From Cryptosporangium aurantiacum (GTDB lineage: Bacteria; Actinomycetota; Actinomycetes; Mycobacteriales; Cryptosporangiaceae), in assembly GCF_900143005.1 (NCBI RefSeq), contig NZ_FRCS01000026.1:1-64000 (forward strand): a DNA stretch of 64,000 nt, written 5' to 3'. The notes under the pieces are model-generated. The model saw only the letters and a program-made list of their open reading frames with translations, was not told where the DNA came from and ran no database searches. The translations under genes and the position numbers were made by a program. Positions 1 to 63,102 of the stretch are shown here, one piece after another; position 1 is the stretch's first letter, and each line of letters begins with the position of its first letter.

Positions 1-1337
1 CGGCGTCCGACGGCGATGGGGACGTCGTCGGGTCCGAGGACGATGCGGTTGATCGCGGCGTCGCAGGCGATGCGGTCGATGGCTTCGAGGGGGAGAGTGT
101 CGCCGAAGTCGGTGCGGCCTCCGTCGCCGGGTCCGGGGACCCAGCGGCTGCCGGGAACCCAGACCCGGGGACCACGACCGGATCCGCTTCCCGAGCCGCC
201 GGAGCCGCCGCCGGAGCCACTGCTGGAGCGGCCGAGGCCACCGTTACCCGAGCCGCCGCCGGGGCCGCCCGGGCCACTGCCGGAGCCGTTGGGGCGCACG
301 TCCAAGCCGCCGGGGACGCCGGGGCTCGTGTCGGGACCGCCGGGGCCGCTGTCGGGGTGGTTGCCGGTGGGGGCCGCGGGTTCGGGTTGGTGCTGGGGGT
401 CGGCGAGCCAGTCGGCGACCACGTCCCAGTCCCAGTCGGTGACCCACTCCTGCTCCCCGTCAGCGTCGAGGGGCCACTCGTCGTCCAGCCGGACCAGGAT
501 CTCGGGCAGCGGAGTGTCCGGGGCGGAAACTGGGGTGTCGGCCAGGACGGTGCGGCCGGTCGGGGTGCGGCGTAGGTCGCTGGCGTGCACGAGCACGGTC
601 AGGTGCGGCTGCTCCCCGGCGGTGGTGGGGAGTTCGCCGGTGTCCAGGATGTGCCGGATGAGGTCCCGGAGGGCGTCGTGGCGGCGTTCGGCCGCTGAGC
701 GCATGTCTTCGGGATCGGGTTTGGGCAGGGTCGCGAAGTAGGTCTGCAGCATCGCCCCGCATTCGGGCGAGAGGGAGCCTTTCAAGTCCCAGATGTCGTC
801 GTAGGTCTGACCCAGGTAGATGGCGCGTTCGGGTTCCGGCGGATGGTCTTTCGCCGGAAGCAGGTGCTCGAGGATGCGTTTGGCGATCTGCCGCAGCTCT
901 GAGCAGCTGAGCCGGTGGGCGTTCTCGAACAACATCTCCTCAGCGACCGGCACCAAATTCGGATCCACCGCGTCGACCTTCCGGGCCAGCCACGCGGCGA
1001 CCTTCACATGCCCGAACGAGACCACCCCGGCGGACAGGGCGCCGGCGAAACGCGGCAGAACCGGTAACCGGCGCGCGGTGTCGACCAGAGCGCTGGCCTC
1101 ACCGGAGGTCATTCTCAACGAGCCTTGGAGCCAGGCCTTCGTCGACGGGGCACCGTTGTAGGCGACCGCGCCTCGGCGATGCACCGCACCGACCGCTTCG
1201 GTGAGCCCGGCCTGGGCCACCCGCACGATTTCTTCCCAGTCTTCTACCCGGCCGAGCTGCGCGGAATCGGGGAGCCCGCCGAGGTCTTCCCCGGCCAACT
1301 CCCGCAACACCGCCACACACTCGACCATCGAACTCAT
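1..1337 (-). CDS. DUF222 (13E12-repeat) / probable HNH endonuclease protein, 3' end missing
   Basis: The reading frame opens at ATG 1337-1335 and stays open to the window edge, giving about 445 residues. The first ~240 residues are a helical DUF222 domain (segments ECVAVLRELAGEDLG, AYNGAPSTKAWLQ, SFGHVKVAAWLARKVD, LSCSELRQIAKRILEH). A long Gly/Ser/Pro-rich linker follows (about residues 330-400), then DRIACDAAINRIVLGPDD, which normally leads into a C-terminal HNH nuclease; that nuclease lies outside the window. DUF222-HNH proteins are multicopy in actinobacteria and are often linked to mobile or intron-like DNA, but their role is unproven. The Pro-rich plus-strand frame opposite the linker is an antisense artefact. 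Confidence 0.85.
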   Translation of the reverse strand, partial: MSSMVECVAVLRELAGEDLGGLPDSAQLGRVEDWEEIVRVAQAGLTEAVGAVHRRGAVAYNGAPSTKAWLQGSLRMTSGEASALVDTARRLPVLPRFAGALSAGVVSFGHVKVAAWLARKVDAVDPNLVPVAEEMLFENAHRLSCSELRQIAKRILEHLLPAKDHPPEPERAIYLGQTYDDIWDLKGSLSPECGAMLQTYFATLPKPDPEDMRSAAERRHDALRDLIRHILDTGELPTTAGEQPHLTVLVHASDLRRTPTGRTVLADTPVSAPDTPLPEILVRLDDEWPLDADGEQEWVTDWDWDVVADWLADPQHQPEPAAPTGNHPDSGPGGPDTSPGVPGGLDVRPNGSGSGPGGPGGGSGNGGLGRSSSGSGGGSGGSGSGSGRGPRVWVPGSRWVPGPGDGGRTDFGDTLPLEAIDRIACDAAINRIVLGPDDVPIAVGR

Positions 1338-1507
1338 GTGCGAAATTCTAGAGCTGCCCCCCGACAGAAAACGGATGCGCGGGAGTCAGACGCGCGCGCC
1401 ATGCACGCGTACGGCGGCACGGCGCCATCACTGATCCGCACGCTGGTTATGCCGGTGACGGGTGTCCACGGGTCGCCTGACTTTGATGGTCTGAGTTGGC
1501 CGCGTTC

Positions 1508-1732
1508 CTCCGGCTTGACCTGGCCCCACCCGGTGCTCCGGCAGGCAGAGTCTCCGGCTTGACCTGGCTCCGGATTCCGGATTGAGGTGGACCCGACGCT
1601 CCAGACGCACAACCGAGCGGCCAGTTGCCGGTGAACTTACCTATCCAACCCGCGTTGTTGCTGCTCAAACACCCAATAACGAGCGACCACTTGCCTGCAT
1701 TCGCAGTGCAGATCTCCGGCGGACCTGGCTCC
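1508..1732. repeat. Short direct repeats CTCCGGCTTGACCTGGC
   Basis: An identical 17-base unit, CTCCGGCTTGACCTGGC, occurs at 1508-1524 and 1552-1568, exactly 44 bases apart. Degenerate copies lie at about 1575-1590 (TTCCGGATTGAGGTGG) and 1714-1732 (CTCCGGCGGACCTGGCTCC). They could be binding sites for the downstream SARP-type regulator, since SARPs bind direct repeats on an 11-base pitch and 44 is 4x11. They could equally be the end of a lost insertion sequence. The sequence does not decide. Confidence 0.55.
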
Positions 1733-1798
1733 TAGCGTTGTCGTCATGCCGCGGCGAACCTACACACACCCGGCGGCGGAGGGCGGCAAGCCCGGACC

Positions 1799-1804
1799 AG
1801 GAGG
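1799..1804 (+). promoter_or_regulatory. Strong ribosome binding site AGGAGG of the short peptide gene
   Basis: A perfect AGGAGG lies 5 bases before ATG 1810. It is the best Shine-Dalgarno site in the area. It fixes the start of the 41-codon gene and argues against the longer in-frame readings that begin further upstream. Confidence 0.8.
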
Positions 1805-1809
1805 AGCCG

Positions 1810-1935
1810 ATGCCTTCGTCCCCGATCCTCAATCCCCACAACCCGCGGAAGGTCTTCCGCGTGGGCAAGACCGACGTTGTCAGCTTCGTCCGCGAGGTAC
1901 CCGAACGCCTCGCCGCGATCGGGTCAACGCGGTGA
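1810..1935 (+). CDS. 41-residue candidate RiPP precursor peptide
   Basis: This short gene has an excellent AGGAGG site and its TGA overlaps the GTG of the next gene (GTGA), so translation of the two is coupled. The peptide starts MPSSPILNPHNPRKVF and ends PERLAAIGSTR. It has no Cys; hydroxyl residues are Ser3, Ser4, Thr21, Ser25, Ser39 and Thr40. Its position directly before a leader-binding ThiF-like protein and a YcaO cyclodehydratase makes it the best precursor candidate. The N-terminal part would be the leader and the Gly-Ser-Thr-Arg tail the only obvious heterocyclisation site. It matches no precursor family known to me, and its Ser/Thr content is low for a classical azole peptide. It might instead be an accessory peptide, with the true precursor elsewhere. 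Confidence 0.6.
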   Translation: MPSSPILNPHNPRKVFRVGKTDVVSFVREVPERLAAIGSTR

Positions 1936-3449
1936 CGACCGGCCAGCTCGTGCGGCTGCGACCGGCGGTGCGGGCATCACAGACGCCGGACGGCATCTAC
2001 GTGCGCGGCTGGAGCACCGCCTTCACCGCTGCGGGCGGCGCGGACCTGTGGCACCTGTGGCAGCGGCTGGAGCCGACGCTGCGGGGCGGCGTCGAGGAGG
2101 GCCGGCTCGCGGGCCTGGCCACGCGGCCGGCCACCCGCGACGCAGTGGGACGCCTCGTCGATGCCCTGACTGAGCACGACATGCTCGTCGATGGGGGAGC
2201 CGAGCTCCCTGCGTGGCTGGAACAGCTGTCCCCGGACGCGATCGACGCCTGGCGGCGCCTCACCACCACGCCGGTGACGATCACCGGCGCGGGTGGCATC
2301 GCCGCCGCCGCCGCGTCGGCGCTCGAGGCGGCAGGCGTACCGGTGCTGACCGTGCGAGGCCGAGTGGCCACGGCGCCGGTCGTACTGAGCACCGGAGGCG
2401 CCGAGCCTGTCGCGGTGGCTGCGATCGGCGGACCGCACACCGGCTTCGTGACCCCGCCGAGTGCCGCCGTCGGATTCGCCAGCCGGGACGTCGACCGCAT
2501 CGCGCGCCTGCTGAGCGTCGTCGCCCCCGGCCGGTCGAACGGGCCGCTCGCGGCTCTGCTCGGCGGGGCCGCCGCGGACCGCATCATCCGGCGGATCGCC
2601 CGGCTCCCCGATGGGCCCGAGCCCGGGCCGTGGCCGATGGTGCTCGTGGCCCGGGCCGCACCGCTGTCGTCTGAATACCGCCCCTGGCTGCTGAGCGGCG
2701 GGGCGGAGCGGACGGACGCAGACGTGCGGCGCCGGTTGGCCGCACTCTGTGACGAGCAGGTCGGCGTCCTACCGCCGCCGCGCTCGGACGACCTGCCCCA
2801 ACTCCCGGTGGCGCTCGCGTCGTACGCGATGGCTCCTGGCGGGGTGACCGGCCTGGGGGCCACGGTCGGCGCGGCGCGGCTCGACGCGGCCTTGCGGGCG
2901 GCCGAGCGCCTTCTCGACCCGCAGGGTGCCGGCCGGCTCGCCGTCGGAATGAACGAGTCCCACGTGGACGGGATCCTGCTGCGCAGGGTGGTGTTCGACC
3001 TCGTCGGTCGCGCGGCCACCGCCGGCCTGCCGGGCCGCAGCGCGAAACGGCTGGCCGTCGCGCCGCTCGCGCACGGCCTGTTCGCCGCGCTCGTCACCGA
3101 GGACGGACGCGAGTCCGGTCGAGCGGTGGAGTTCACCGCCGAGCGGGCGGCGGCCTGCGCCGCCATGCAGGCGGACGGCGCGCGGCAGGCTCGCGCCGCA
3201 GGCCTTCCGGACGACGATGGGCCGCTGACGCTGTGCGGCGCGTTCGCCGCCGCGTCGTCGCACCACGGTCCCCCTGACGTCGAATGGCTGGACGGTTCGC
3301 CGGACGAGTCGCGCGTGCAGGACGCCCTTCGACTGATCGTGCCGTCCGCTCGCCGACCGCGTCCCGAGCGCCGACGGCGGCGGGGCGCCCTGTCGGAGGG
3401 GCTGCGAGCGACCGGCTTCGTCGTGAAGGTGGTCGACGCGGATGACTGA
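1932..3449 (+). CDS. TOMM biosynthesis ocin-ThiF-like protein (leader-peptide-binding F protein)
   Basis: The protein has 505 residues from GTG 1932, which overlaps the precursor stop. The frame is open further upstream to 1746 but has no ribosome site there. The first ~85 residues (VRLRPAVRASQTPDGIYVRG, then a helical stretch ending LTEHDMLVD) have the layout of the PqqD-like RiPP recognition element of thiazole-bacteriocin maturation proteins. The middle (PVTITGAGGIAAAAASALEAAG) is the degenerate Rossmann/ThiF part. In F-dependent TOMM systems such as heterocycloanthracin and thiopeptides, this protein binds the leader and presents the core to the YcaO enzyme. It overlaps the YcaO gene by 8 bases. 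Family assignment is from motif layout and neighbour; function is inferred. Confidence 0.8.
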   Translation: MTTGQLVRLRPAVRASQTPDGIYVRGWSTAFTAAGGADLWHLWQRLEPTLRGGVEEGRLAGLATRPATRDAVGRLVDALTEHDMLVDGGAELPAWLEQLSPDAIDAWRRLTTTPVTITGAGGIAAAAASALEAAGVPVLTVRGRVATAPVVLSTGGAEPVAVAAIGGPHTGFVTPPSAAVGFASRDVDRIARLLSVVAPGRSNGPLAALLGGAAADRIIRRIARLPDGPEPGPWPMVLVARAAPLSSEYRPWLLSGGAERTDADVRRRLAALCDEQVGVLPPPRSDDLPQLPVALASYAMAPGGVTGLGATVGAARLDAALRAAERLLDPQGAGRLAVGMNESHVDGILLRRVVFDLVGRAATAGLPGRSAKRLAVAPLAHGLFAALVTEDGRESGRAVEFTAERAAACAAMQADGARQARAAGLPDDDGPLTLCGAFAAASSHHGPPDVEWLDGSPDESRVQDALRLIVPSARRPRPERRRRRGALSEGLRATGFVVKVVDADD

Positions 3450-5355
3450 GCACAGCACGTTCGCCGCCGCACTACGAGCGAAGCTGGAATCCACGTCGGG
3501 TCCGCCGGTAGTGGTACTGGACGGTCCCACCACCGATGACCTCGACACCACCGCCGAAGCGGACCTTCTCGTCCTGCTGCCGACGACGTGGACCGCGGCG
3601 GACCTCACCGAGCTCAGCGACCGAGCCCCCGGTCCGAGCATCGCGCTGCGTCAGGACGCCGCGGTGACGGTGCTCGGTCCGGTAGTCGGCCCGGGTCAGC
3701 CCGGGTGCCTCCGCTGCGCGGAGCACGCTCGCCTGCGAATGCTGACGCTGCCGGGCGACCCGATGCTGCTGACGTTCGGCGGCCAGCCCTCACCGACCAG
3801 CCTGCCGCTGCTGGCTGCTCTGATCACCGCGGTGGCCCGCGATCCGAACATCGCGCCGGGGACGGTATGGACGCTCGGCCCCGCGGCGAACGTCGTCTCC
3901 GCCCATCAGGTCGCACCGGATCCGGACTGCCCGCGCTGCCACCCGATGCTCGACGACACCGCCGCCGGCGCCACGTTCACCCCGGTGCCACGGCCCGTCG
4001 GCACATCGTCCGAGCTGCGCGCGCCCAATCCTGCGGTCGAAGGAGACCGGCTGAACCGGGCGCTGATCACCGGGGGCTTCGGGACGGTGATCCGGCTGAA
4101 CGACATCGACGCCGCACCCGTGCCGCTGGCCTCGGCGGTGACCGTGGCCGGCGGACGTCACGAGTACGGGTACGGCCGCGGCGCCAGCGTGGCGGAGGCG
4201 CGGCGCACAGCGCTGTTCGAGGCGGTCGAACGTCGGGCCGCTCTGCGTCCGCATGGCCGTAGGACCGTGCTCCGGGCGTCCTACGAGGACCTCGGCCCAC
4301 AGGTCGCGATCGACCCCTCGACGCTCGGGCTCTCCGACCCGCGCCATCACGGACATCCCGCGTTCCGGCTCACCCCGTACCGGCCGGACGCGGTGACCAA
4401 CTGGGTCTACGGCTGGTCGATGACGCGTGAGCGCGCCGTCGCCGTTCCGGAGCACGTCGCGTACTACGGACTGCGTGCGAGCCGTTCCGCGCCGCACTTC
4501 GTCGATGAGAGATCCAACGGTTGCGGCACCGGCAGCAGCCTCGAGGAGGCCGCCCTCTACGGGTTGTTCGAGGTCGTCGAGCGTGATGCGTTCCTGCTCG
4601 CCTGGCACGCCCGCACCCCGCTGCATCGCGTCGCGCCGCCGAGCAGCGACGAGTTGACTTGGCACCTCGTCCAGAAGACCACTCGGGCCGGGTACGACCT
4701 GCAGTTCTTCGACGCGACCAACGACCTCGCCCTGCCGGTGGTGCTCTCGCTCGCACTGCGCCGCGATGGGACACCGGCCGGTCTGCACGCCTACTTCTCT
4801 GCCGGTGCCCATCCGGATCCCCGCGTCGCCCTGCGATCGGCAGCGATGGAGGCGGCCGTCGGGTTGCACGCGGCCGCCCGGATGGCCCGCGACCTCACGT
4901 CGCGTGACTCAGCGCGGATACGGCGGATGCTGACCGACCCCACCGAGGTGCGCACGATCGACGATCACGTCGCCCTCAACGCGCTACCCGAGGCGCGGCC
5001 GCGGTATGAGTTCCTGCTCGACGGCCCCGGCCCCGTTGACTGGCGCGAGCTCTGGCCGGGGCAGCCGGCCCCGGTGACCGACCTGACCGAGGTACTGACC
5101 GGGCTGATCGAACACCTCGCGGGGCGGGGCCTCGAGACGGTGGTCGTCGACCAGACTGATCCGTGGATCCGTGCGCGGCTCGGGCTGCGCTCGGCGAAGG
5201 TGATCGTGCCGGGCACGCTGCCGATGACGTTCGGGTACGTCCACCAGCGCACGGTCGGCCTGCCGCGCTTGCTGCACGTGCCGTTTCAGCTCGGCCGTGC
5301 CCCCGCCGTGCTCGACTACGCGGATCTTCCCCTCCATCCGCACCCGTTCCCATGA
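3442..5355 (+). CDS. Fused E1-like/YcaO azoline cyclodehydratase (TOMM C-D protein)
   Basis: The protein has 637 residues. Residues ~1-200 are the E1-like C domain, with VLGPVVGPGQPGCLRC and a likely zinc tetrathiolate from Cys89/Cys92 and Cys163/Cys166 (DCPRC). Residues ~230-637 are the YcaO domain, with the ATP/Mg motifs ARRTALFEAVERR, SNGCGTGSSLEEA, GLFEVVERDAFLL and ALRSAAMEAA. The C-terminus reads PLHPHPFP and contains the PxPxP signature of cyclodehydratase-type YcaO proteins. Such enzymes use ATP to cyclise Cys/Ser/Thr side chains onto the preceding amide, giving azolines. All expected residues appear intact. It is coupled to the F protein by overlap. No McbC-like flavin dehydrogenase is adjacent, so products may stay at the azoline stage or be oxidised by an unlinked enzyme. 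Confidence 0.92.
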   Translation: MTEHSTFAAALRAKLESTSGPPVVVLDGPTTDDLDTTAEADLLVLLPTTWTAADLTELSDRAPGPSIALRQDAAVTVLGPVVGPGQPGCLRCAEHARLRMLTLPGDPMLLTFGGQPSPTSLPLLAALITAVARDPNIAPGTVWTLGPAANVVSAHQVAPDPDCPRCHPMLDDTAAGATFTPVPRPVGTSSELRAPNPAVEGDRLNRALITGGFGTVIRLNDIDAAPVPLASAVTVAGGRHEYGYGRGASVAEARRTALFEAVERRAALRPHGRRTVLRASYEDLGPQVAIDPSTLGLSDPRHHGHPAFRLTPYRPDAVTNWVYGWSMTRERAVAVPEHVAYYGLRASRSAPHFVDERSNGCGTGSSLEEAALYGLFEVVERDAFLLAWHARTPLHRVAPPSSDELTWHLVQKTTRAGYDLQFFDATNDLALPVVLSLALRRDGTPAGLHAYFSAGAHPDPRVALRSAAMEAAVGLHAAARMARDLTSRDSARIRRMLTDPTEVRTIDDHVALNALPEARPRYEFLLDGPGPVDWRELWPGQPAPVTDLTEVLTGLIEHLAGRGLETVVVDQTDPWIRARLGLRSAKVIVPGTLPMTFGYVHQRTVGLPRLLHVPFQLGRAPAVLDYADLPLHPHPFP

Positions 5356-5516
5356 CGACGCTGGAGCGGGTGCGTTACCGGCCGGCGTCGCTTTGTTGAC
5401 ACAACCTCACTGCACGGTTGGGGCGATCGGTACAATTCGGCTTTGGCCAAGACCACAGTCGCGTCCCGATCGACGCTCGCCAGTCGTTCGGTCGCCCGGG
5501 GGCGGAAGGCGAGCGG

Positions 5517-8500
5517 GTGGGTGCAGGTCCCGGGAGAACCGGTCGAACACCTTCAGCGGAACCGTCCCTCGGCGACCTCGTCCGCACCCATCGGCAGAAC
5601 GCCGGTCTGGCGCAGGAGACGCTCGCCCTGCGGGCGGGCGTGAGCATTCGGACGGTCAGCAACATCGAACGCGGTAGCGTCGCGCGCCCGCGGGCCGAGT
5701 CGGTTCGGCGCCTGCTGACCGCGCTCGGTCTGGGCGCCGACGATTCGGTCCGGCCCGCCGAGATCGAACCCGTCCAGGCGGGCCGCCCGGCCCTGGCCGT
5801 CCGAGTGCTCGGCCCGCTGTCCGTGGAGCGGCACGGTAGGGCGATTCCGCTGCACTCTGCCCGATTACGCAGTCTGCTCGGGCGGTTGGCCGTCCAGCAC
5901 GGTCAGCCGGTCGGCCGCGAGGAGATCGCCGAAGCGCTGTGGGGCTCGCGCCCGCCGCGCACCTATCCGGCGCTGGTGAACAGCTACGTGGCCCGCCTGC
6001 GTGACGTCCTCGAACCGGATCGGGCAGCCCGTAGCCAGCTCGGTGTGGTCGTCCTGACCACCGGCGGTTACCGGCTCGACCTGCGCGAGGACCAACTCGA
6101 CGTCGCGCGGTTCGAGCGGCTCGCCGACCGGGGACGGCACGCCCGCGGCGCGGGCGACCTCGGTGCGGCCCAGGAGCTGTTCGAGCAGGCCCTGGCCATC
6201 TGGCGCGGGCCGGTGCTGGCGGATCTGCGCAATCCGCTGTCGACGCAGCATCCGTCCGCCGTGGCGCTCGGGCAGTTGCGGCTGGACACGGCGGTGGCCT
6301 ACGCCGACGCCAGCCTCACGCTCGGCCGCCACGAGGCGGTCGTCCGCACGCTGCGCGCGCTCGCTGACGAGGAGCCGCTGCACGAGGGGCTGGCCGCACG
6401 CCTGATGCTGGCGCTGGCCGCGACCGGACGCCAGGCCGAGGCCCTGGACCTGTTCTTCGCTCTGCGGACGCGCCTCGGCAACGAGCTCGGCATCGAACCG
6501 GGCACGGAACTGACCGATGCCCATCTGCGGGTGTTGCGCCAGCAGACGATGACGCCGAGGGCCGACGACGAGCCGGCCCGGGCGGTGCCCCGCCAGTTGC
6601 CGGCGGGCACCGTGGCGTTCCACGGACGGGCCGAGCACCTGAGCCGACTGGACGATCTGCTCGACGGTCTCGAGGCCGACCCTCGTCCCGACGCAGCGGT
6701 GGCCGTCGTGGCGGGGACGGCCGGCGTCGGAAAGACCACGCTCGCCGTGCACTGGGCACGCCGGCAGGCACACCGGTTTCCCCACGGTCAGCTGTACGTC
6801 AACCTTCAGGGGTACGACCGGTCGGGCGTTCCGGTGCAGCCCGCCGAGGCGATCCGCCACTTTCTGGACGCCCTCGGCGTGCCGCCCGAGCGGATCCCCG
6901 AGCGCCTGCCGGCCCAGGCCGCGCTGTACCGCAGCATCCTGGCCGATCGGCGGATGCTCGTGCTCCTCGACAACGCCCGCGACGTCACACAGGTCCGTGA
7001 GCTGCTGCCCGGCTCCGCCGACTGCCTCACGATCGTGACCAGCAGGGACCGGCTGGCTTGCCTGGTCGCCGACGGCGCCCTGCCGATCTCGGTGGACCTG
7101 CTGCCGGTCGGGGAGGCGGTGGAACTGCTCGCCCGCCGGATCGGCGGGCAGCGGGTGGGGGCCGAGCCGGACGCCGTCGAGGAGATCGTCAGACGGTGTT
7201 CGCGGCTGCCACTGGCGCTGGCGATCGTGGCAGCCCGCGCGGCGACGCATCCCGGCTTCGCGCTGGCTGAGCTGTCCGACGAGCTGACCGAGGCCAGTGC
7301 CGCTCTGGACGTGCTGAACACCGGTGATCTGGGCGTCAGAGCGGCGTTCTCCTGGTCCTATCGGGCGTTGACGCCGGCCGCAGCCCGGCTGTTCCGGCTG
7401 CTCGGACTACACCCCGGGCCGGACATCGCGATGCCCGCCGCCGCCAGCCTCGCCGCCGTCACCGCGGCCGGCGCTCGTCAACTGCTGGCCGAGCTGACGC
7501 GGGCCAATCTGATCACCGAACACTCCCTGGGACGGTTCGCCTGCCACGACCTGCTGCGCGCCTACGCCGGCGAACGGGGGCGGCGGGAAGATTCCGACGA
7601 GGAGCGGTCGGCTGCGGTGCGGCGGCTGGATGACCACTACCTGCGCACCGCACACGCCGCGGCACGGCTGCTCAACCCGGCGCGGCCCGCGATCCGCCTC
7701 CCGGCACGGCAGGCCTATGACGGCGTCACGCTGGCGGAGCTTGCCGATCACGGACAGGCCCTGCGGTGGTTCACCACCGAGCACCAAGTGCTGATGACGA
7801 TCACCAAGCAGCCCGCCGACCTCGAACTACGACGCGACCGGCACGTCTGGCAACTCGCCTGGTGCCTCGTCGACTTCTTCGACCGACAGGGCCACTGGCG
7901 CGACTGGATCACCACCCACACCGCCGCGCTGGCCGCTGCTCGGTCCCTGGCCTCCGACGCCGCGCAGGCGCACATCCACCGTGGACTGGGACTTGCTCAC
8001 GCCCGGCTGCGCTGGGACGGTGCCGAGGAGCATCTCCATCGCGCCCTGGAGCTCTTCGAGGCCCTCGACGACGGCGGTGGCCGGGCGGCCGTCCATCACG
8101 ACCTCGCTCGGATCCTCGAACACGCCGGCCACCACACGGATGCGGTGGAGCAGGCATGGAAGGCCCTGAGGATCTATCAGAGCCTCGGCGACCTGGGCGG
8201 GCAGGGCAAGGTGCTCAACGGCATCGGCTGGCACTACGCCCTGGTCGGCGAACACCACACGGCGCTGCGGCACTGCGAACGAGCCCGTGACCTGCTTGAG
8301 CAGGCCGGTAGTCGCATCGTGCTGGCTGCCACCTGGGACAGTCTCGGCTACATCAGCCACCATCTCGGCGACTACCACAACGCCGTGAACTACTACGCGC
8401 AGGCTTTGGACACCTTCGCCGAGTTCGGCGAACGGGCCCTCCAGGGCGAGGTGCTCCTACACCTCGGGGACACCCAGGCCGCCGTGGGCGATATCGACGC

Positions 8501-8627
8501 CGCGCTCGAGGCATGGGGAGGCGCGCAGAGCATCCTCGAGAAGCTCGGCGTCCCCGATGCCGATCAGGCACGAGCCAGGATCGACGCGTCGCTGGCCGAC
8601 CGAGTCTCGTCGGGGAGTCGATCCTGA
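5517..8627 (+). CDS. SARP/AfsR-type regulator: Xre HTH, OmpR-like wHTH, BTAD, NB-ARC, TPR
   Basis: The protein has about 1036 residues. The order is an Xre helix-turn-helix (residues ~15-75; LRTHRQ-like segment and SIRTVSNIERG), an OmpR-type winged helix (~93-175), a bacterial transcriptional activation domain (~180-325), an NB-ARC ATPase with P-loop GTAGVGKTT near residue 400, and C-terminal TPRs (~800-1020). GTG 5517 is chosen because a GGAAGG-like site precedes it; the frame is open back to a TTG at 5418. An Xre domain fused in front of a SARP core is a recurrent actinobacterial arrangement. It follows the YcaO gene after 161 bases, in the same direction, so it is the probable pathway-specific activator of the TOMM locus. 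That role is inferred. Confidence 0.85.
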   Translation: MGAGPGRTGRTPSAEPSLGDLVRTHRQNAGLAQETLALRAGVSIRTVSNIERGSVARPRAESVRRLLTALGLGADDSVRPAEIEPVQAGRPALAVRVLGPLSVERHGRAIPLHSARLRSLLGRLAVQHGQPVGREEIAEALWGSRPPRTYPALVNSYVARLRDVLEPDRAARSQLGVVVLTTGGYRLDLREDQLDVARFERLADRGRHARGAGDLGAAQELFEQALAIWRGPVLADLRNPLSTQHPSAVALGQLRLDTAVAYADASLTLGRHEAVVRTLRALADEEPLHEGLAARLMLALAATGRQAEALDLFFALRTRLGNELGIEPGTELTDAHLRVLRQQTMTPRADDEPARAVPRQLPAGTVAFHGRAEHLSRLDDLLDGLEADPRPDAAVAVVAGTAGVGKTTLAVHWARRQAHRFPHGQLYVNLQGYDRSGVPVQPAEAIRHFLDALGVPPERIPERLPAQAALYRSILADRRMLVLLDNARDVTQVRELLPGSADCLTIVTSRDRLACLVADGALPISVDLLPVGEAVELLARRIGGQRVGAEPDAVEEIVRRCSRLPLALAIVAARAATHPGFALAELSDELTEASAALDVLNTGDLGVRAAFSWSYRALTPAAARLFRLLGLHPGPDIAMPAAASLAAVTAAGARQLLAELTRANLITEHSLGRFACHDLLRAYAGERGRREDSDEERSAAVRRLDDHYLRTAHAAARLLNPARPAIRLPARQAYDGVTLAELADHGQALRWFTTEHQVLMTITKQPADLELRRDRHVWQLAWCLVDFFDRQGHWRDWITTHTAALAAARSLASDAAQAHIHRGLGLAHARLRWDGAEEHLHRALELFEALDDGGGRAAVHHDLARILEHAGHHTDAVEQAWKALRIYQSLGDLGGQGKVLNGIGWHYALVGEHHTALRHCERARDLLEQAGSRIVLAATWDSLGYISHHLGDYHNAVNYYAQALDTFAEFGERALQGEVLLHLGDTQAAVGDIDAALEAWGGAQSILEKLGVPDADQARARIDASLADRVSSGSRS

Positions 8628-9622
8628 TGGCGGCCGCGACACCCTCCGGCTCCGACGCGTCGACGACCGCGCCACGCGTGGAGCGTCGATACCTGCCCTG
8701 GCTCGTTCTCGGCTGGGCGCTGGCCTACGGCACCGTCCAGCTGACCTGGGCCATCATCGGCGCGCCGTCGTTCGAGCCGCTCGGAACCGACCTCATGGTG
8801 TTCGCCGGCTGGGCGTCGGTGGGGCTCTGCGCGGCGGTCGCCGCAACTGCCGTGGGCCTGATCCGCGCGCGCTCCTGGCGGCCCGCGTTGGCGGTGGCGG
8901 GCTGGGGCACGGCGGTAGCTCTGGTGCTGGCGTGCCCACTCCTCCTGTTGGACGTCGTTGGGCTGCTCTTTCCGGGCCTGGGGCTGCCGTTCGACCTCGC
9001 CGCGTTCCTCAGCCGGTCCGCCGCGCTGACCGGAGCCGTGCTCGAGGGCCTCGCGCTGCGCCGGTACCAGCGGTTGTTCCGCGGGGACTGTCGGCGATGC
9101 GGACGCACCGGCAACCCGCGGTCGGCCGAGAGCGCCGTCCACGTGCCGCGCTGGGCGTGGGCCGCGGCGTACCTGGCAGTCGCCGGCTGCCTGATCAGGC
9201 TGGCCGCCCAGCTCGCGGTGGGGCCGGGCAATACACCGCTGGCGGAGGGCCCGTCGATGGTGGCGTTCGAGATCGGGTTCCTGCTCGCCGGAATCGTGCT
9301 GCCGTTGGCGCTGGTCCACTCCTGGGGCCGCGTCTGGCCGCGCTGGGTCCCGCTGCTCGCCGGCCGCCGCGTGCCCCGCCTGTTGCTGCTGGGTCCGGCG
9401 GTGGCAATCAGCGGCGGCCTGATCGTCTACTTCGGCGTCGGCCTGGTGCAACTGTCCGTCGAGACCATCACCGGAACCTGGGACCCCGGCGACGGGGCAC
9501 TCCCGTTGTGGTTCTACTGGATCGCAATACCGGCTTACCTGCTGTGGGGGATCGGGCTGCTGGTGGCGACGGTCGCTTTCCAGAGGCGCACCCGGCGTCC
9601 GTGCCCGGCCTGCGGTCGCTGA
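8627..9622 (+). CDS. Polytopic membrane protein of unknown function
   Basis: The protein has 331 residues. Its ATG lies in the TGATG overlap with the regulator stop, so the two are co-translated. About 7-8 hydrophobic segments are seen (for example LPWLVLGWALAYGTVQLTW, ALVLACPLLLLDVVGLLF, LLLLGPAVAISGGLIVYFG). A cytoplasmic-type loop carries CRRCGRTG and the C-terminus ends CPACGR, so a shared four-Cys metal site is possible. No transporter family was recognised. Linkage to the TOMM operon suggests a role in export, sensing or self-protection, but nothing in the sequence proves it. Confidence 0.75.
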   Translation: MAAATPSGSDASTTAPRVERRYLPWLVLGWALAYGTVQLTWAIIGAPSFEPLGTDLMVFAGWASVGLCAAVAATAVGLIRARSWRPALAVAGWGTAVALVLACPLLLLDVVGLLFPGLGLPFDLAAFLSRSAALTGAVLEGLALRRYQRLFRGDCRRCGRTGNPRSAESAVHVPRWAWAAAYLAVAGCLIRLAAQLAVGPGNTPLAEGPSMVAFEIGFLLAGIVLPLALVHSWGRVWPRWVPLLAGRRVPRLLLLGPAVAISGGLIVYFGVGLVQLSVETITGTWDPGDGALPLWFYWIAIPAYLLWGIGLLVATVAFQRRTRRPCPACGR

Positions 9623-9678
9623 ATTCACGCCCGGGTCTCATACCTCACTGTGAGTGATCGGCGTTACCGTAGGTCGGT

Positions 9679-10485
9679 ATGGGCCGGTGGTGCCGGGCAG
9701 GGCTGAGCGTCGCGGTCGTCGTCGGACTGGTGGTGGGCATGCTGTGGGCGCTGCAGCGGCGGCTGATCTACTTTCCCGACCGCGCCGCGCCCGCGGTTCC
9801 GGCCGCGGTCACGGAGGTCGGTCTTACTGCTGACGACGGGCTGCGGCTCACCGCGTGGCAGGTGGCGCCGACCGCCTCGTCGAGAAACGACGTCGTCACC
9901 CTGGTGGTGCCGGGCAACGCGGGCAATCGTGCCGGCCGCGTGGAATTGGCCCGCAAGCTCGCTGCGGCCGGGCTCACCGTGCTGCTCATGGACTACCGAG
10001 GCTACGGCGGCAACCCCGGCGACCCGTCCGAGGATGGGCTCGTCCGCGACGCTCGTGCGGCTTGGGACCACCTCACCGGTGCCGGTGGATTTACCGCCGA
10101 CCGGATCATCCTGTTCGGCGAGAGCCTCGGCGCCGCAGTCGTCGCCCGGCTCGCCGCCGGTCTGTCTGAGCAGCCGCGCGGGATCGTGCTCCGCTCGCCG
10201 TTCGTGTCGCTGGCCGATGTCGGGAAGGCGCACTATCCGTTCCTGCCGGTCGGTCTGTTGTTGCGGGACCGGTTCCCGGTTGCGGACCAGATTCGCAGCG
10301 TCGGCGCGCCCACGATCGTCGTCTACGGCACGCGCGACACGATCGTCCCGCCGGACCAGAGCCGCACGGTCGCCGAGTCGGCCGCAAACCTCGTCGACAG
10401 CGTCTCGGTCGAGGGCGCCGACCACAACGACCCGGTGCTCGGCGACGGTCCCGCCGTGGTCGACGCGGTCCGACGCCTCGCCTAG
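9679..10485 (+). CDS. Membrane-anchored alpha/beta hydrolase (ABHD17/YfhR-like)
   Basis: The protein has 268 residues. An N-terminal transmembrane anchor (VAVVVGLVVGMLWALQ) is followed by RRLIYFPD, typical of this subfamily. The oxyanion segment is VVPGNAGNRAGR, the nucleophile elbow is GESLGA (Ser), an Asp lies in VYGTRDTIVP and a His in GADHND, so a full Ser-Asp-His triad is present. The substrate is unknown; relatives are thioesterases or peptidase-like esterases. It is transcribed alone, towards a strong hairpin shared with the convergent KaiC-like gene. Confidence 0.85.
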   Translation: MGRWCRAGLSVAVVVGLVVGMLWALQRRLIYFPDRAAPAVPAAVTEVGLTADDGLRLTAWQVAPTASSRNDVVTLVVPGNAGNRAGRVELARKLAAAGLTVLLMDYRGYGGNPGDPSEDGLVRDARAAWDHLTGAGGFTADRIILFGESLGAAVVARLAAGLSEQPRGIVLRSPFVSLADVGKAHYPFLPVGLLLRDRFPVADQIRSVGAPTIVVYGTRDTIVPPDQSRTVAESAANLVDSVSVEGADHNDPVLGDGPAVVDAVRRLA

Positions 10486-10502
10486 TCCGGGCCGCCGCCC
10501 GG

Positions 10503-10548
10503 GCGGATTGCATTTGGAAGGCCTATGGCCCTTGCAAATGCAATCCGC
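10503..10548. terminator. Bidirectional hairpin between convergent genes
   Basis: A perfect 14-base inverted repeat, GCGGATTGCATTTG (10503-10516) and CAAATGCAATCCGC (10535-10548), flanks an 18-base loop that can form an inner AAGG/CCTT stem. It sits between the stops at 10485 and 10565, as expected for a two-way terminator. It is unusually AT-rich for this genome. Confidence 0.75.
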
Positions 10549-10564
10549 TCAACGAATAGCGGCG

Positions 10565-12001
10565 TCAGGGGGCGCTGCAGTCGCGCGGGACGCTCCAGCC
10601 GAGCATCCCGGTGACCTGCGTGAGCTTGTCGCCGACGGCGATGCCGTCGTCGGTGATGCGGCAGTGGTACATGCCGTTGTCGTGAGCACTGTTGCGCATC
10701 TTCACGACGTTGAGCAGCCGGCCGATTTCGGCGCAACGTTCGATGTACCGGATCTGGATCACGTTGTGGAAGAGGAACATCAGCCCGACCAGCGGCTCTT
10801 CCACCGGCCCGAACGTGTTGGTCTCGCTGGTGACCCAGAGGGAAGCGCCGGCGGAGCGGATGACGCCGAGGAGACTGCGTAGGTAGGCGGGGAAGCGGTC
10901 GGTCTCGCGCGCGGCTTCGGCCATCTCGGCCAGGCTGTCGATCACGACCCGGGTGGTCGTGCCGTCGGCGAGGCGGTGACGGATCACCGCGGCCACGACG
11001 TCGAGTTCGAGTCGGCCCACCGGCACGTGGGAAATCATCAGGTGGTCGCTGGCGCGGGCGGCTTCGAAATCCCAGCCGAACTTGCCCGCCATGCCGACCA
11101 GTTGGTCGAGGGTGTCTTCGAAAGTGATGTAGAGGCAGCGTTCGCCGCGGGCCAGGCCCTCGGCGAGAAAGTTGAGACAGCAGATCGTCTTACCGACGCC
11201 GGAGGGCCCCAGGACGAGGGTGGCGTCAGCGTGCGGTATCCCGCCGTCCGTCAACGCGTCCAGGCCGGGAACCCCGGACGAGACGCGCAGGTTGTTCAGC
11301 GGCACTTCGTCGGGCAGGAACGACTCGACCCGGGGATACACCTGGAACCCGTCGGCCGAGATCGCCACCGTGTGAGCGCCGTTGAGATGGGTGGTGCCTC
11401 GCAGCTTGACGACCCGCAGAGTGCGCCGGTCCACCGGCTCGCGGGACTGGTACGACAGGTGCACGATGCCGTCGGCGAGGGCGAACTCCACCCCTGTCTG
11501 CATCTCCTCGGCGGTGTACTCGCCCAGCAGGAGTAGCACCGCCCCGCTGTGCGCGACCCGGCTGGTCAGATCGTAGAGCGCCGTCCGCAGGGCGTGATCG
11601 CTGACAAAATCCCGCAGCATCTTGGTGCTGTCGACCACCACCAGCACCGGCTCGTCGTCGAGAGCCCGGCGGACCACCTCGTCAACCAGCGGCTCGAGGT
11701 CACCGGCGCCGCGGTCTCGCAGCATGTCACCGAGGTGGACGTACTCGACCTTGGGCCCGAGAGCCGAAGGGTCGAAGAACGAAAACCCGCGCAGGTGTTC
11801 GACGAGCTTGGAGTGCGGCTCGGACAGGGTCGTGTAGTAGACGGCCTTGTGCTCGACGGTGGCGTTGGCGAAGCAGATCTGTTGCGCCAGGATCGTCTTC
11901 CCAGACCCGGGCGGCCCGGCCAGGACCACCACCGAGCCCGCGAACAGACCACCGCCGAGGATCAGGTCCAGGTCCGCCAGCCCGGTCGACAGCCGCTTCA
12001 C
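10565..12001 (-). CDS. KaiC-like RecA-superfamily ATPase with two domains
   Basis: The protein has 478 residues from GTG 12001. There are two KaiC/RAD55-type domains: domain 1 with Walker A GPPGSGKT and Walker B VLVVVDSTK, domain 2 with GPSGVGKT and TRVVIDSLAEM. The C-terminal extension that carries the phosphorylation tail of cyanobacterial KaiC is absent. The start overlaps the stop of a single-domain response regulator by 4 bases (GTGA), indicating one signalling unit. Stand-alone KaiC-like ATPases in non-cyanobacteria are linked to stress or signal transduction rather than proven clocks; the exact role is open. Confidence 0.85.
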   Translation of the reverse strand: MKRLSTGLADLDLILGGGLFAGSVVVLAGPPGSGKTILAQQICFANATVEHKAVYYTTLSEPHSKLVEHLRGFSFFDPSALGPKVEYVHLGDMLRDRGAGDLEPLVDEVVRRALDDEPVLVVVDSTKMLRDFVSDHALRTALYDLTSRVAHSGAVLLLLGEYTAEEMQTGVEFALADGIVHLSYQSREPVDRRTLRVVKLRGTTHLNGAHTVAISADGFQVYPRVESFLPDEVPLNNLRVSSGVPGLDALTDGGIPHADATLVLGPSGVGKTICCLNFLAEGLARGERCLYITFEDTLDQLVGMAGKFGWDFEAARASDHLMISHVPVGRLELDVVAAVIRHRLADGTTTRVVIDSLAEMAEAARETDRFPAYLRSLLGVIRSAGASLWVTSETNTFGPVEEPLVGLMFLFHNVIQIRYIERCAEIGRLLNVVKMRNSAHDNGMYHCRITDDGIAVGDKLTQVTGMLGWSVPRDCSAP

Positions 12002-60909: not shown

Positions 60910-63102
60910 CTAGGGGAGCGTCAGTGAGCACAACGAATCGCCAGCCGTCGTGATCGGGTCGCAGTGCAGGTACAGGGCGGTACCGTCGGTCAGCATCCCA
61001 CCGGCGAGCTTCACGCCGTCGTCCTCGCCGACGGTCCGAACCACCGCGCCGGTGGCCGGTCGGAGCGACACCACCCCATCGGTGCGCGCGAAGTGGAACA
61101 GGTCGCCGGCGTAGACCGGCTGCTCGTTCTGGTAGGCCTCGACCTCCCGATGCCACAGCGTCCGTCCGTCGTCGAGCGAGATTCCGGTCAACAACCCTCC
61201 CGACTCGGCCTCTCCCGACCAGGAGCGGACGCAGGCGACCTGTCCGCCGACCACCAGGTATCCGGAACCGACCGAAGACTTCCAGAGGGTGGCGCCGTCC
61301 TTCGCGTTCACCGCGACCAGCTTGTCGGCCACACCGGGCAGGTAGATCCGGTCGCCGACGACCATCGGGGCGCCCGCCACGCCGCCCAGGACTTGCGCCC
61401 ACACCTCGCTCCCGGTTCGGCCGTCGAGCGCGAACAGCTGGCCGGCCCCGCCCGCCACGTAGACCCGCCCGCCGGCCGCGATCGGCATACCGGCCGGCGT
61501 AGTGGGGGCGTCGCCGAGCCGGACCCGCCATCGGAGGACGCCTGCCGCGGCGTCGATGCCGTAGACGTATCCCTCGTCGTCGGCCGCGTACACCCAGCTC
61601 CCGGCCATCGAGACCCCCTGAGCGTCCGACGAAGCGAGCGGAGTACGCCAGGCGGGCGTACCGGTGCGGGGGTCGAGTCCGTAGACGGCAGCGTCGCCGC
61701 CTTCCTCGTGACCGGCCAGGACGATGCGGCCCGCCACGAAAGGGGGAGCAGGCGGGTACGTCCCCAGCGGAGCGATCGGCTGCTCCCAGCGCCGCGCGCC
61801 GGTGGCCAGCTCGAACCCGGTGATGACCGGATCCGAGCCGCCGGCGTAGGCGATCCCGACGCCGCCCGCGGCGGTCACCACCGAGCCGGTGCTCACGGGG
61901 GCACCGCCTGACCAGCGTCGACGTCCGGTCGCCGGATCGATGCCCTGCAGCTGATCGTTGTCGGTCGGGGCGAGCAGGAGCCCGCCGGCCAGCCACGGCC
62001 CCGGCCAACTCGGTCCGACGTCGGATTCGATCCGCCATCGCACCGGCCCGGACGAGCGACCCGCCCACCAGATGCCAAAGGTCGCGCCGCCGGCGGCGAG
62101 CACGACCGCGCCGAGCCCACCGGCCACGAGCGCACGCCGGGACAGCCGCCGGGACCGCTGTCCGGTCTCCACGAGCGTCGGGGAAGCGGGCACCGGCACG
62201 CGCCAGGGCGCCGCCGTCAACCCGGGCAGCATCGCAACGGCCCGGCCGATCTCGTCCGCGATCGGCGTCGGCAGCCACCGGGTGTCGTCGAGCGTCGGCG
62301 CGTCCACCGACCAGGCGGCCAGGAGGTCGGCCGGGACCGGACGGCGGTCGGGCGCCTTGTCGAGGCAAGCGGCCAGCCGAGCGCGAAGATCGGCGTCGAC
62401 GACGCCATCCAGGCACGGTTCCTCGGTGACGGTCCGCAACAGCAGCTCGTGACTGTTGCCGCCGCCGAACGGCCCGACTCCGGTCAGCGTGTACACCAGG
62501 AGCGCACCGAGGGCGAAGACGTCGACCGCGGGCCCGGTGTCGGCACCGGTGATCTGCTCGGGGGCCAGGTAGCCGGGGGTGCCGATGATGACGCCGGTGC
62601 CGGTCAGCGTCGAGAAGTCGGCCGCGCGGGCGATGCCGAAGTCGATCACCCGTGGGCCTACCGCGGTGAGCAGGACGTTCGGGGGCTTCAGGTCACGGTG
62701 GACCACGCCGGCCCGGTGAATCGCGTCGAGCGCTTCGGCGAGCGCGGCACCAAGCGCCCGCGCGGCGGGGACCGGCAGCGGGCCGTGCGTGGCCACCGCG
62801 TCGGTGAGCGAGAGAGCGGGCAGGTACGCCGTGGCCAGCCAGGGCACCGAGGCCTCGGCGTCGGCATCGACGAGCGGCGCGGTGAACACTCCGTCGACCC
62901 GGCGCGCCGCCGCGACCTCCCGCCCGAACCGGGCGCGGAACCCCTCGTCGGCTGCCAGATTCTCGTGGATCACCTTGACCGCGACCGGCCGACCACCGCG
63001 GGAGCGCGCGAGGTAGACCTGGCCCATCCCGCCCGCGCCCAAGCGCGCGAGCAGTTGGTGGGGACCGATCCGGTCCGGGTCGTCGGGGAGAAGCGGCTCC
63101 AC
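60910..63102 (-). CDS. Ser/Thr protein kinase with C-terminal PQQ-type beta-propeller
   Basis: The protein has 730 residues from GTG 63102 (GGGGTGA site), which lies four bases after the upstream stop; the ATG at 63132 would overlap that gene. Residues ~15-265 are a Hanks-type kinase: GAGGMGQVYLAR, VAVKVI (Lys), HRDLKPPNVLL (catalytic Asp), VIDFGIAR (DFG), GTPGYLAPEQ. One transmembrane helix (~320, LVAGGLGAVVLAAGGATFGIWW) leads to an outer seven- or eight-bladed PQQ/Trp-docking propeller (GIDPATGRRRW, YGLDPRTGTPAW, FALDGRTGSEVW repeats). It is a transmembrane receptor kinase. Confidence 0.93.
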   Translation of the reverse strand: MEPLLPDDPDRIGPHQLLARLGAGGMGQVYLARSRGGRPVAVKVIHENLAADEGFRARFGREVAAARRVDGVFTAPLVDADAEASVPWLATAYLPALSLTDAVATHGPLPVPAARALGAALAEALDAIHRAGVVHRDLKPPNVLLTAVGPRVIDFGIARAADFSTLTGTGVIIGTPGYLAPEQITGADTGPAVDVFALGALLVYTLTGVGPFGGGNSHELLLRTVTEEPCLDGVVDADLRARLAACLDKAPDRRPVPADLLAAWSVDAPTLDDTRWLPTPIADEIGRAVAMLPGLTAAPWRVPVPASPTLVETGQRSRRLSRRALVAGGLGAVVLAAGGATFGIWWAGRSSGPVRWRIESDVGPSWPGPWLAGGLLLAPTDNDQLQGIDPATGRRRWSGGAPVSTGSVVTAAGGVGIAYAGGSDPVITGFELATGARRWEQPIAPLGTYPPAPPFVAGRIVLAGHEEGGDAAVYGLDPRTGTPAWRTPLASSDAQGVSMAGSWVYAADDEGYVYGIDAAAGVLRWRVRLGDAPTTPAGMPIAAGGRVYVAGGAGQLFALDGRTGSEVWAQVLGGVAGAPMVVGDRIYLPGVADKLVAVNAKDGATLWKSSVGSGYLVVGGQVACVRSWSGEAESGGLLTGISLDDGRTLWHREVEAYQNEQPVYAGDLFHFARTDGVVSLRPATGAVVRTVGEDDGVKLAGGMLTDGTALYLHCDPITTAGDSLCSLTLP

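Follow-up and report, generated by a model that had tools for sequence, protein, structure and literature searches.

A Cryptosporangium aurantiacum contig (NZ_FRCS01000026.1), whose first 64,000 nucleotides we analysed and refer to as the window, carries near its start a 41-residue open reading frame (ORF) that overlaps the gene of an F protein, which in turn overlaps the gene of a fused E1-YcaO cyclodehydratase (Table 1). The two proteins are probably the azoline-forming enzyme pair of a thiopeptide pathway, of the LazD/LazE or TbtF/TbtG type, that has been orphaned from the rest of that pathway and is still active. A largely intact pair without its pathway raises the questions of whether an azoline-forming module can live alone and what it would modify. 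Such a pair could inform how pathways for ribosomally synthesized and post-translationally modified peptides (RiPPs) shrink or become re-used and, if active, would offer a two-protein tool for making azolines. Within titles and abstract openings of the open-licence literature, we found no description of an F and YcaO pair cut from a thiopeptide cluster and accompanied by a Cys-free peptide.

The enzyme pair and its thiopeptide relatives

The E1-YcaO protein exceeded the cut-offs of TIGR03604 (288.9 bits) and TIGR03882 (64.4 bits), and also matched PF02624. Both CxxC pairs and the PxPxP ending that had been noticed in a sequence-only reading of this DNA are present, and two further relatives end in PHPFN. 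Across the set of 32 proteins described below, it keeps 101 of 109 near-invariant residues and ranks fifth by share lost. The E1-YcaO family profile aligns only to residues 129-775 of LynD, whose RiPP recognition element (RRE) we take to lie before residue 129, and the window protein appears from its sequence to lack an RRE of its own.

A structure model of the F protein (mean pLDDT 79.2, pTM 0.66) predicts an N-terminal RRE whose fold matches the RRE of PbtF (8t19). On this model F is an RRE-bearing partner protein, and the earlier label of ocin-ThiF-like holds by fold; it does not hold at the level of the family model, where TIGR03693 (ocin_ThiF_like) gave no match at E 10. That model also misses the F proteins of two thiopeptide-type relatives, L016 and L058 (0.01), so its silence does not decide the identity of F. 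No credible PDB match was obtained by sequence with the F profile. The protein keeps 32 of 37 near-invariant residues, two of the losses falling in a block absent near residue 370. Its RRE part is 61% identical to that of its relative L134, the same value as between L134 and L058, and the rest of the protein reaches 44-54%. The predicted RRE fold and the TIGR03604 and TIGR03882 matches support an F-dependent, azoline-forming and thiopeptide-related pair, as the sequence-only reading had supposed.

By homology with described systems, the F protein would capture a leader peptide with its N-terminal RRE for presentation to the E1-YcaO partner, which, having no RRE itself, would use ATP to convert Cys, Ser or Thr to azolines. 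In the portion of the lactazole report cited here, LazD and LazE alone bring about two to five dehydrations, and LazD, LazE and LazF together yield three thiazoles and one oxazole (PMC7210931). Without a dehydratase, a pyridine synthase or an adjacent dehydrogenase, the window pair would be expected to make a linear peptide with azolines, or with azoles if a SagB enzyme encoded on another contig of the genome (C12) assists.

With F as the only query, a scan of the collection gave no matches; a three-row alignment as query recovered 16 named loci. Genome searches were scored for the best 3 to 5 first-look candidates in each genome, so that all counts are lower bounds. An F match was present in 9 of the 298 genomes searched from the order and in 9 of the 394 from the class, the source genome being counted both times. 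Two families of the order, whose genomes partly coincide with those of the order search, had matches in 19 genomes out of 354 and in 37 out of 390. Plasmid records contained no relative of F. Surroundings were read for all eight other genomes of the order search, all eight others of the class search, and 9 of the 19 and 10 of the 37 in the two families. The four other genomes of the organism's own family held no close YcaO relative; the best match was a different thiazole/oxazole-modified microcin (TOMM) protein in genome G036, at 36%. At an E threshold of 1e-8 we retained 40 distinct F relatives in 36 loci, leaving out repeats of the same protein, L139 (the same as L058), L054 (a match that was not reproduced), L021 (described below) and the F-like genes of L052 and L143, which lie above E 1e-8 and also adjoin LanB-like and YcaO genes.

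All 40 F relatives adjoin LanB-type genes. A LanB N-terminal protein stands beside F in 39, and in the exception the contig runs out after 139 bases; pyridine synthase genes were found beside 37 and YcaO genes beside 36. The elimination domain was recognised for 34, the misses falling in loci that end close by or are incomplete in other respects too, and a thiopeptide precursor is linked to 34 (the misses are L024, L025, L062, L136, L145 and L146). These roles were assigned with NCBIfam and Pfam on L016 and parts of L058, and elsewhere by blastp to reference proteins. Many relatives share the order precursor, LanB, pyridine synthase, F, YcaO and elimination/dehydrogenase, which is the A-B-C-D-E-F order given for lactazole in the cited part of its report (PMC7210931). 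At the position of the window's GTGA overlap, the pyridine-synthase gene terminates in most relatives, as a rule with an overlap of 4 bases as well.

IQ-TREE phylogenies of 32 YcaO and 32 F proteins nest both window proteins among thiopeptide-cluster proteins. Like the residue test, they were built from the window pair and from 31 relatives in which both genes are present, L024 and L025 being excluded as distant. The pair joins L134 (genome G760) and L058 of Rugosimonospora africana, with support of 97/90 for YcaO and 98/93 for F. Identities to these nearest relatives are 61% and 56% for YcaO and 46% and 41% for F; unlike the window, both are thiopeptide-type clusters in which genes for a precursor, LanB and pyridine synthase are present.

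The corresponding partners were not found in the source genome. Lant_dehydr_C, the elimination domain, had no match there, while the same search was positive in three of six other genomes. Lant_dehydr_N, which represents LanB-type glutamylation, gave nothing above its cut-off of 28 bits; one match of 20.8 bits contains a stop, and the model scores 78.4 bits on a relative's LanB. No pyridine synthase was found on the contig, and genome-wide it was sought only through Lant_dehydr_C, which is weak on a true one (27.3 bits). A tblastn search of the whole contig with 14 proteins for remnants of a thiopeptide cluster gave a best E of 0.012, inside the YcaO gene itself.

The likeness to LazD/LazE and TbtF/TbtG is one of gene order, fold and published description, not of compared sequences. 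As in lactazole biosynthesis, leader binding and YcaO catalysis are divided between two proteins; unlike it, the genome has no LazB and LazF equivalents, the contig has no LazC, and no LazA-like precursor was found among the 150 scored of 203 candidates in the genome. The RRE fold fits that of PbtF from the GE2270-type system; unlike that system and thiomuracin, the window has a peptide without the Lx4F motif, and no Cys-rich precursor was found on the contig or among the scored genome candidates.

The 41-residue peptide

The peptide contains four Ser, two Thr and no Cys. A start codon behind an exact AGGAGG, with at least 30 open in-frame codons to the same stop, appeared in 4 of 4000 dinucleotide-shuffled versions of 1330-1932. 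The codon score of the ORF is higher than those of 1043 of 1114 non-coding stretches of 41 codons from the window, and among 401 true coding stretches no more than 41 have an equal or lower score. On these grounds the short gene with its perfect ribosome-binding site, picked out in the sequence-only reading, is probably, though not certainly, real.

Six-frame searches of the 36 relative loci (678 kb) yielded no relative of the peptide (best E 4.7). In 396 other genomes of the order none was convincing, the one match at E = 0.0018 lying antisense to a called gene and being ascribed to chance, and no credible relative appeared on plasmid records. Judged by these comparisons, the enzymes are old and shared among relatives, whereas the peptide is private to one genome. 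The proposal that peptide and enzymes form a small family was therefore not borne out: the peptide is not conserved in the loci and genomes compared, and thiopeptide precursors are linked to the enzymes in most relatives instead.

Two other origins for the ORF were considered and rejected. For an origin from the end of the pyridine-synthase gene located before F in relatives, its best local score was equalled by 323 of 500 shuffles, and there was no profile score. The idea of a worn thiopeptide precursor or leader came from a likeness seen by eye, DVVSFVRE..PE..AA in the peptide against DVTSLRD..ALPE..AAS. At standard gap costs 268 of 500 shuffles were equally good; neither two profiles (112 of 500; 156 of 500) nor block tests (1381 of 2000; 1063 of 2000) set the peptide apart from shuffles. 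Lenient gap costs, chosen afterwards, left 16 of 500 shuffles equally good. The Lx4F motif, described in the cited portion of one report as bound by the RREs of actinobacterial thiopeptide systems (PMC12710340), is absent by inspection. An FxxxB motif is present (F26..V30); by a hand estimate, about four in ten such peptides would contain one by chance.

Active pair, relic or peptide system

Several observations count against a pair that is still active. F has the highest rate of residue loss among the 32 proteins, if narrowly (5 of 37; the next two stand at 5 of 38, one of them through a start mis-call), and its end branch is the longest of its trio (0.78 versus 0.47 and 0.60). This form of the locus occurs in one genome only, so selection on it is unmeasurable; no dehydrogenase or peptidase was recognised among the three immediate neighbours, and the local peptide lacks Cys. 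Genome G289 carries in L021, at about 9326-9586 on the minus strand, an isolated RRE-like stretch that aligns over 91 residues with the window F protein at 38% identity (E 2e-8), after which the frame looks broken, and no thiopeptide gene was recognised in this 18-kb locus. The stretch is possibly a remnant of another F gene, which would mean that F remnants do occur.

These features suit a relic in which the operon retains the last two genes of a thiopeptide cluster whose product is no longer made, the 41-residue ORF being incidental or a translation-coupling frame. The genome search that found no dehydratase or elimination gene, and no precursor among the candidates scored, agrees with such a loss, as do the missing block of F, the peptide without relatives and a repeated sequence 430 bases upstream where a rearrangement is plausible. 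We nevertheless consider a relic unlikely, if a serious competitor. Both long ORFs are open and keep most of their near-invariant residues, the RRE is as conserved as between two complete clusters, a perfect ribosome-binding site stands in front, and no remnants of neighbouring genes were found on the contig. The YcaO end branch is also normal (0.40 versus 0.27 and 0.39 in its two sisters), although this would be uninformative if the partners were lost recently.

If the orphaned pair is active, the 41-residue peptide, the only local candidate, may be assigned as its substrate only tentatively; a peptide encoded elsewhere is nearly as likely. Put differently, the peptide would be the substrate in roughly half of the cases in which the orphaned pair works. 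The sequence-only reading had gone further and cast it as a precursor dedicated to a small oxazoline-type RiPP, its Gly-Ser-Thr-Arg tail being the core. That reading overlaps with an active orphaned pair and adds the substrate; we find it doubtful. The peptide is encoded by the first gene of the operon, is coupled to F and has a strong ribosome-binding site, and Ser can be cyclised by such enzymes, as the oxazole of lactazole indicates in the cited part of its report (PMC7210931). It is also conserved nowhere we searched, has no Lx4F motif and bears no likeness to thiopeptide leaders under standard scoring.

A screen of the contig brought no rival to light. It required at least 40% Cys, Ser and Thr in the second half of an ORF and a 4-base ribosome-binding site, and returned 14 ORF starts in the window and six in the remaining 16.8 kb of the contig. 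Only two had a positive codon score, a 20-residue ORF (0.8) and one (5.2) within the frame of the gene at 60910-63102, and by these criteria no credible Cys/Ser/Thr-rich coding ORF exists on the 80.8-kb contig. A leader of the LxVTxMRDxxALPExxAS type was likewise not found among its short ORFs.

A more specific form of an active pair, which we hold to be a fairly slim prospect, is capture by a newly arisen Cys-free peptide. The result would be a three-gene RiPP system making oxazoline peptides from Ser or Thr without dehydratase or dehydrogenase and, if true, a natural reduction from a thiopeptide to a linear azoline peptide.

A precursor encoded elsewhere in the genome would likewise leave the pair active. 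This is on record for an F-dependent system, heterocycloanthracin, where most clusters of the Bacillus cereus group have a precursor encoded elsewhere, according to the cited part of a 2015 survey that ties F proteins to thiopeptide and heterocycloanthracin clusters, with only two outside (PMC4603692). HcaF and HcaD resemble the window pair in that a truncated cyclodehydratase depends on F. Unlike the window, where the three searched neighbours include no dehydrogenase and a SagB protein sits on contig C12, heterocycloanthracin clusters all have a B dehydrogenase in the part of that survey cited (PMC4603692); the window pair also nests among actinobacterial thiopeptide proteins, in trees built without heterocycloanthracin proteins. 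A genome search with a profile of 16 thiopeptide precursors, run without a positive control, gave a best E of 0.485 among the 150 of 203 candidates that were scored. A second TOMM locus of the genome does encode a Cys-rich precursor together with a SagB dehydrogenase, but that locus has C and D proteins of its own. We regard a remote precursor as rather improbable.

This separate TOMM locus (L022, contig C12 20000-39000) occupies 3723-11890 on the minus strand. Its likely precursor has 177 residues with a Cys-rich stretch (VSCCCCTPCCSCC) near the end, and its other genes encode a C protein, a YcaO D protein, the SagB dehydrogenase, a 736-residue protein without a family and an M36-like metallopeptidase.

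An assembly artefact, with the missing genes on another contig or unassembled, is very unlikely: the genome is a draft, the window starts at a contig end and a repeat lies at 1330-1377, but about 430 bases directly 5' of the operon are unique in the genome and contain no gene remnant, so that a misjoin at the repeat would not hide genes normally touching F, and the dehydratase genes were not found genome-wide.

Locus layout and flanking sequence

The 9.58-Mb draft genome comprises 44 contigs and is 98.46% complete. Gene calls came from a script of our own, whose known errors include a wrong start (L018) and a wrong strand (L021). Coordinates are collected in Table 1; the GTGA coupling and the F/E1-YcaO overlap are both as the sequence-only reading had them.

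Table 1. Features of the operon and its surroundings (positions in the window)
Feature	Position	Strand	Basis or remark
DUF222 protein, context; divergent from operon, runs off contig start	3..1328	-	PF02720 105.4 bits, cut-off 24.4
Intergenic region 5' of operon	1330..1809	.	First 41-48 bases repeated in genome; no thiopeptide gene remnant
AGGAGG ribosome-binding site, five bases before ATG of 41-residue ORF	1799..1804	+	Sequence; 4/4000 shuffles
41-residue Cys-free ORF, candidate substrate or small partner	1810..1935	+	ORF, codon score; no convincing relatives
GTGA overlap, TGA of 41-residue ORF / GTG of F gene	1932..1935	+	Sequence
F protein gene, 505 residues, LazD/TbtF-like leader-binding partner by homology	1932..3449	+	Relatives' neighbourhoods, trees, structure model
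Predicted RRE of F, residues 2-89	1935..2198	+	
Predicted E1/ThiF-like fold of F, residues 88-254	2193..2693	+	
C-terminal half of F, YcaO-like fold by structure only, residues 260-505	2709..3446	+	
Block absent from F at about residue 370 (..RRWWxALT.., present in most relatives)	3039..3042	+	Alignment with relatives
Fused E1-YcaO cyclodehydratase gene, 637 residues, LazE/TbtG-like; its ATG lies within the F gene end	3442..5355	+	TIGR03604, TIGR03882, PF02624
First CxxC (C89, C92)	3706..3717	+	Invariant in 16-protein alignment
Second CxxC (C163, C166)	3928..3939	+	C166 invariant, C163 nearly, 16-protein alignment
YcaO domain	4174..5217	+	
C-terminal PHPFP (PxPxP)	5338..5352	+	Invariant in 16/16 aligned proteins
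HTH-BTAD-NB-ARC-TPR regulator (AfsR/SARP-like), context	5517..8627	+	Family search; may or may not belong to operon

The first 41-48 bases of the intergenic region, which lie immediately 5' of the DUF222 gene, are repeated at seven other sites in the genome, two of them within 1.6 kb of the starts of other contigs. Further towards the operon, 1508-1594 holds three direct repeats of 20 bases, imperfect and CTCCGGCTTGACCTGGCYCC-like; 11 bases of the repeat occur again at 1722-1732. A promoter and terminator scan of 1300-5700 returned no sites of either kind, and the GC contents of operon (73%) and window (70%) are not telling. The neighbours searched by family were the DUF222 protein, the regulator and, beyond it, a 331-residue protein without any family match; as had been stated, none is a known dehydrogenase, peptidase or exporter. 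The regulator shares 33-37% identity with regulators near the thiopeptide-type clusters L020, L046, L065, L145 and L146, a weak likeness within a common family.

Among the relatives, L046/L068 and L070 show two F-plus-dehydratase-type gene sets running in opposite directions around a gene pair that by eye resembles an ABC transporter. In L142 a 71-residue frame (10995-11210) lies between the F and YcaO genes and has, by eye, a cyclodehydratase-like start; it is perhaps a partial duplication, and the same arrangement is present in L064.

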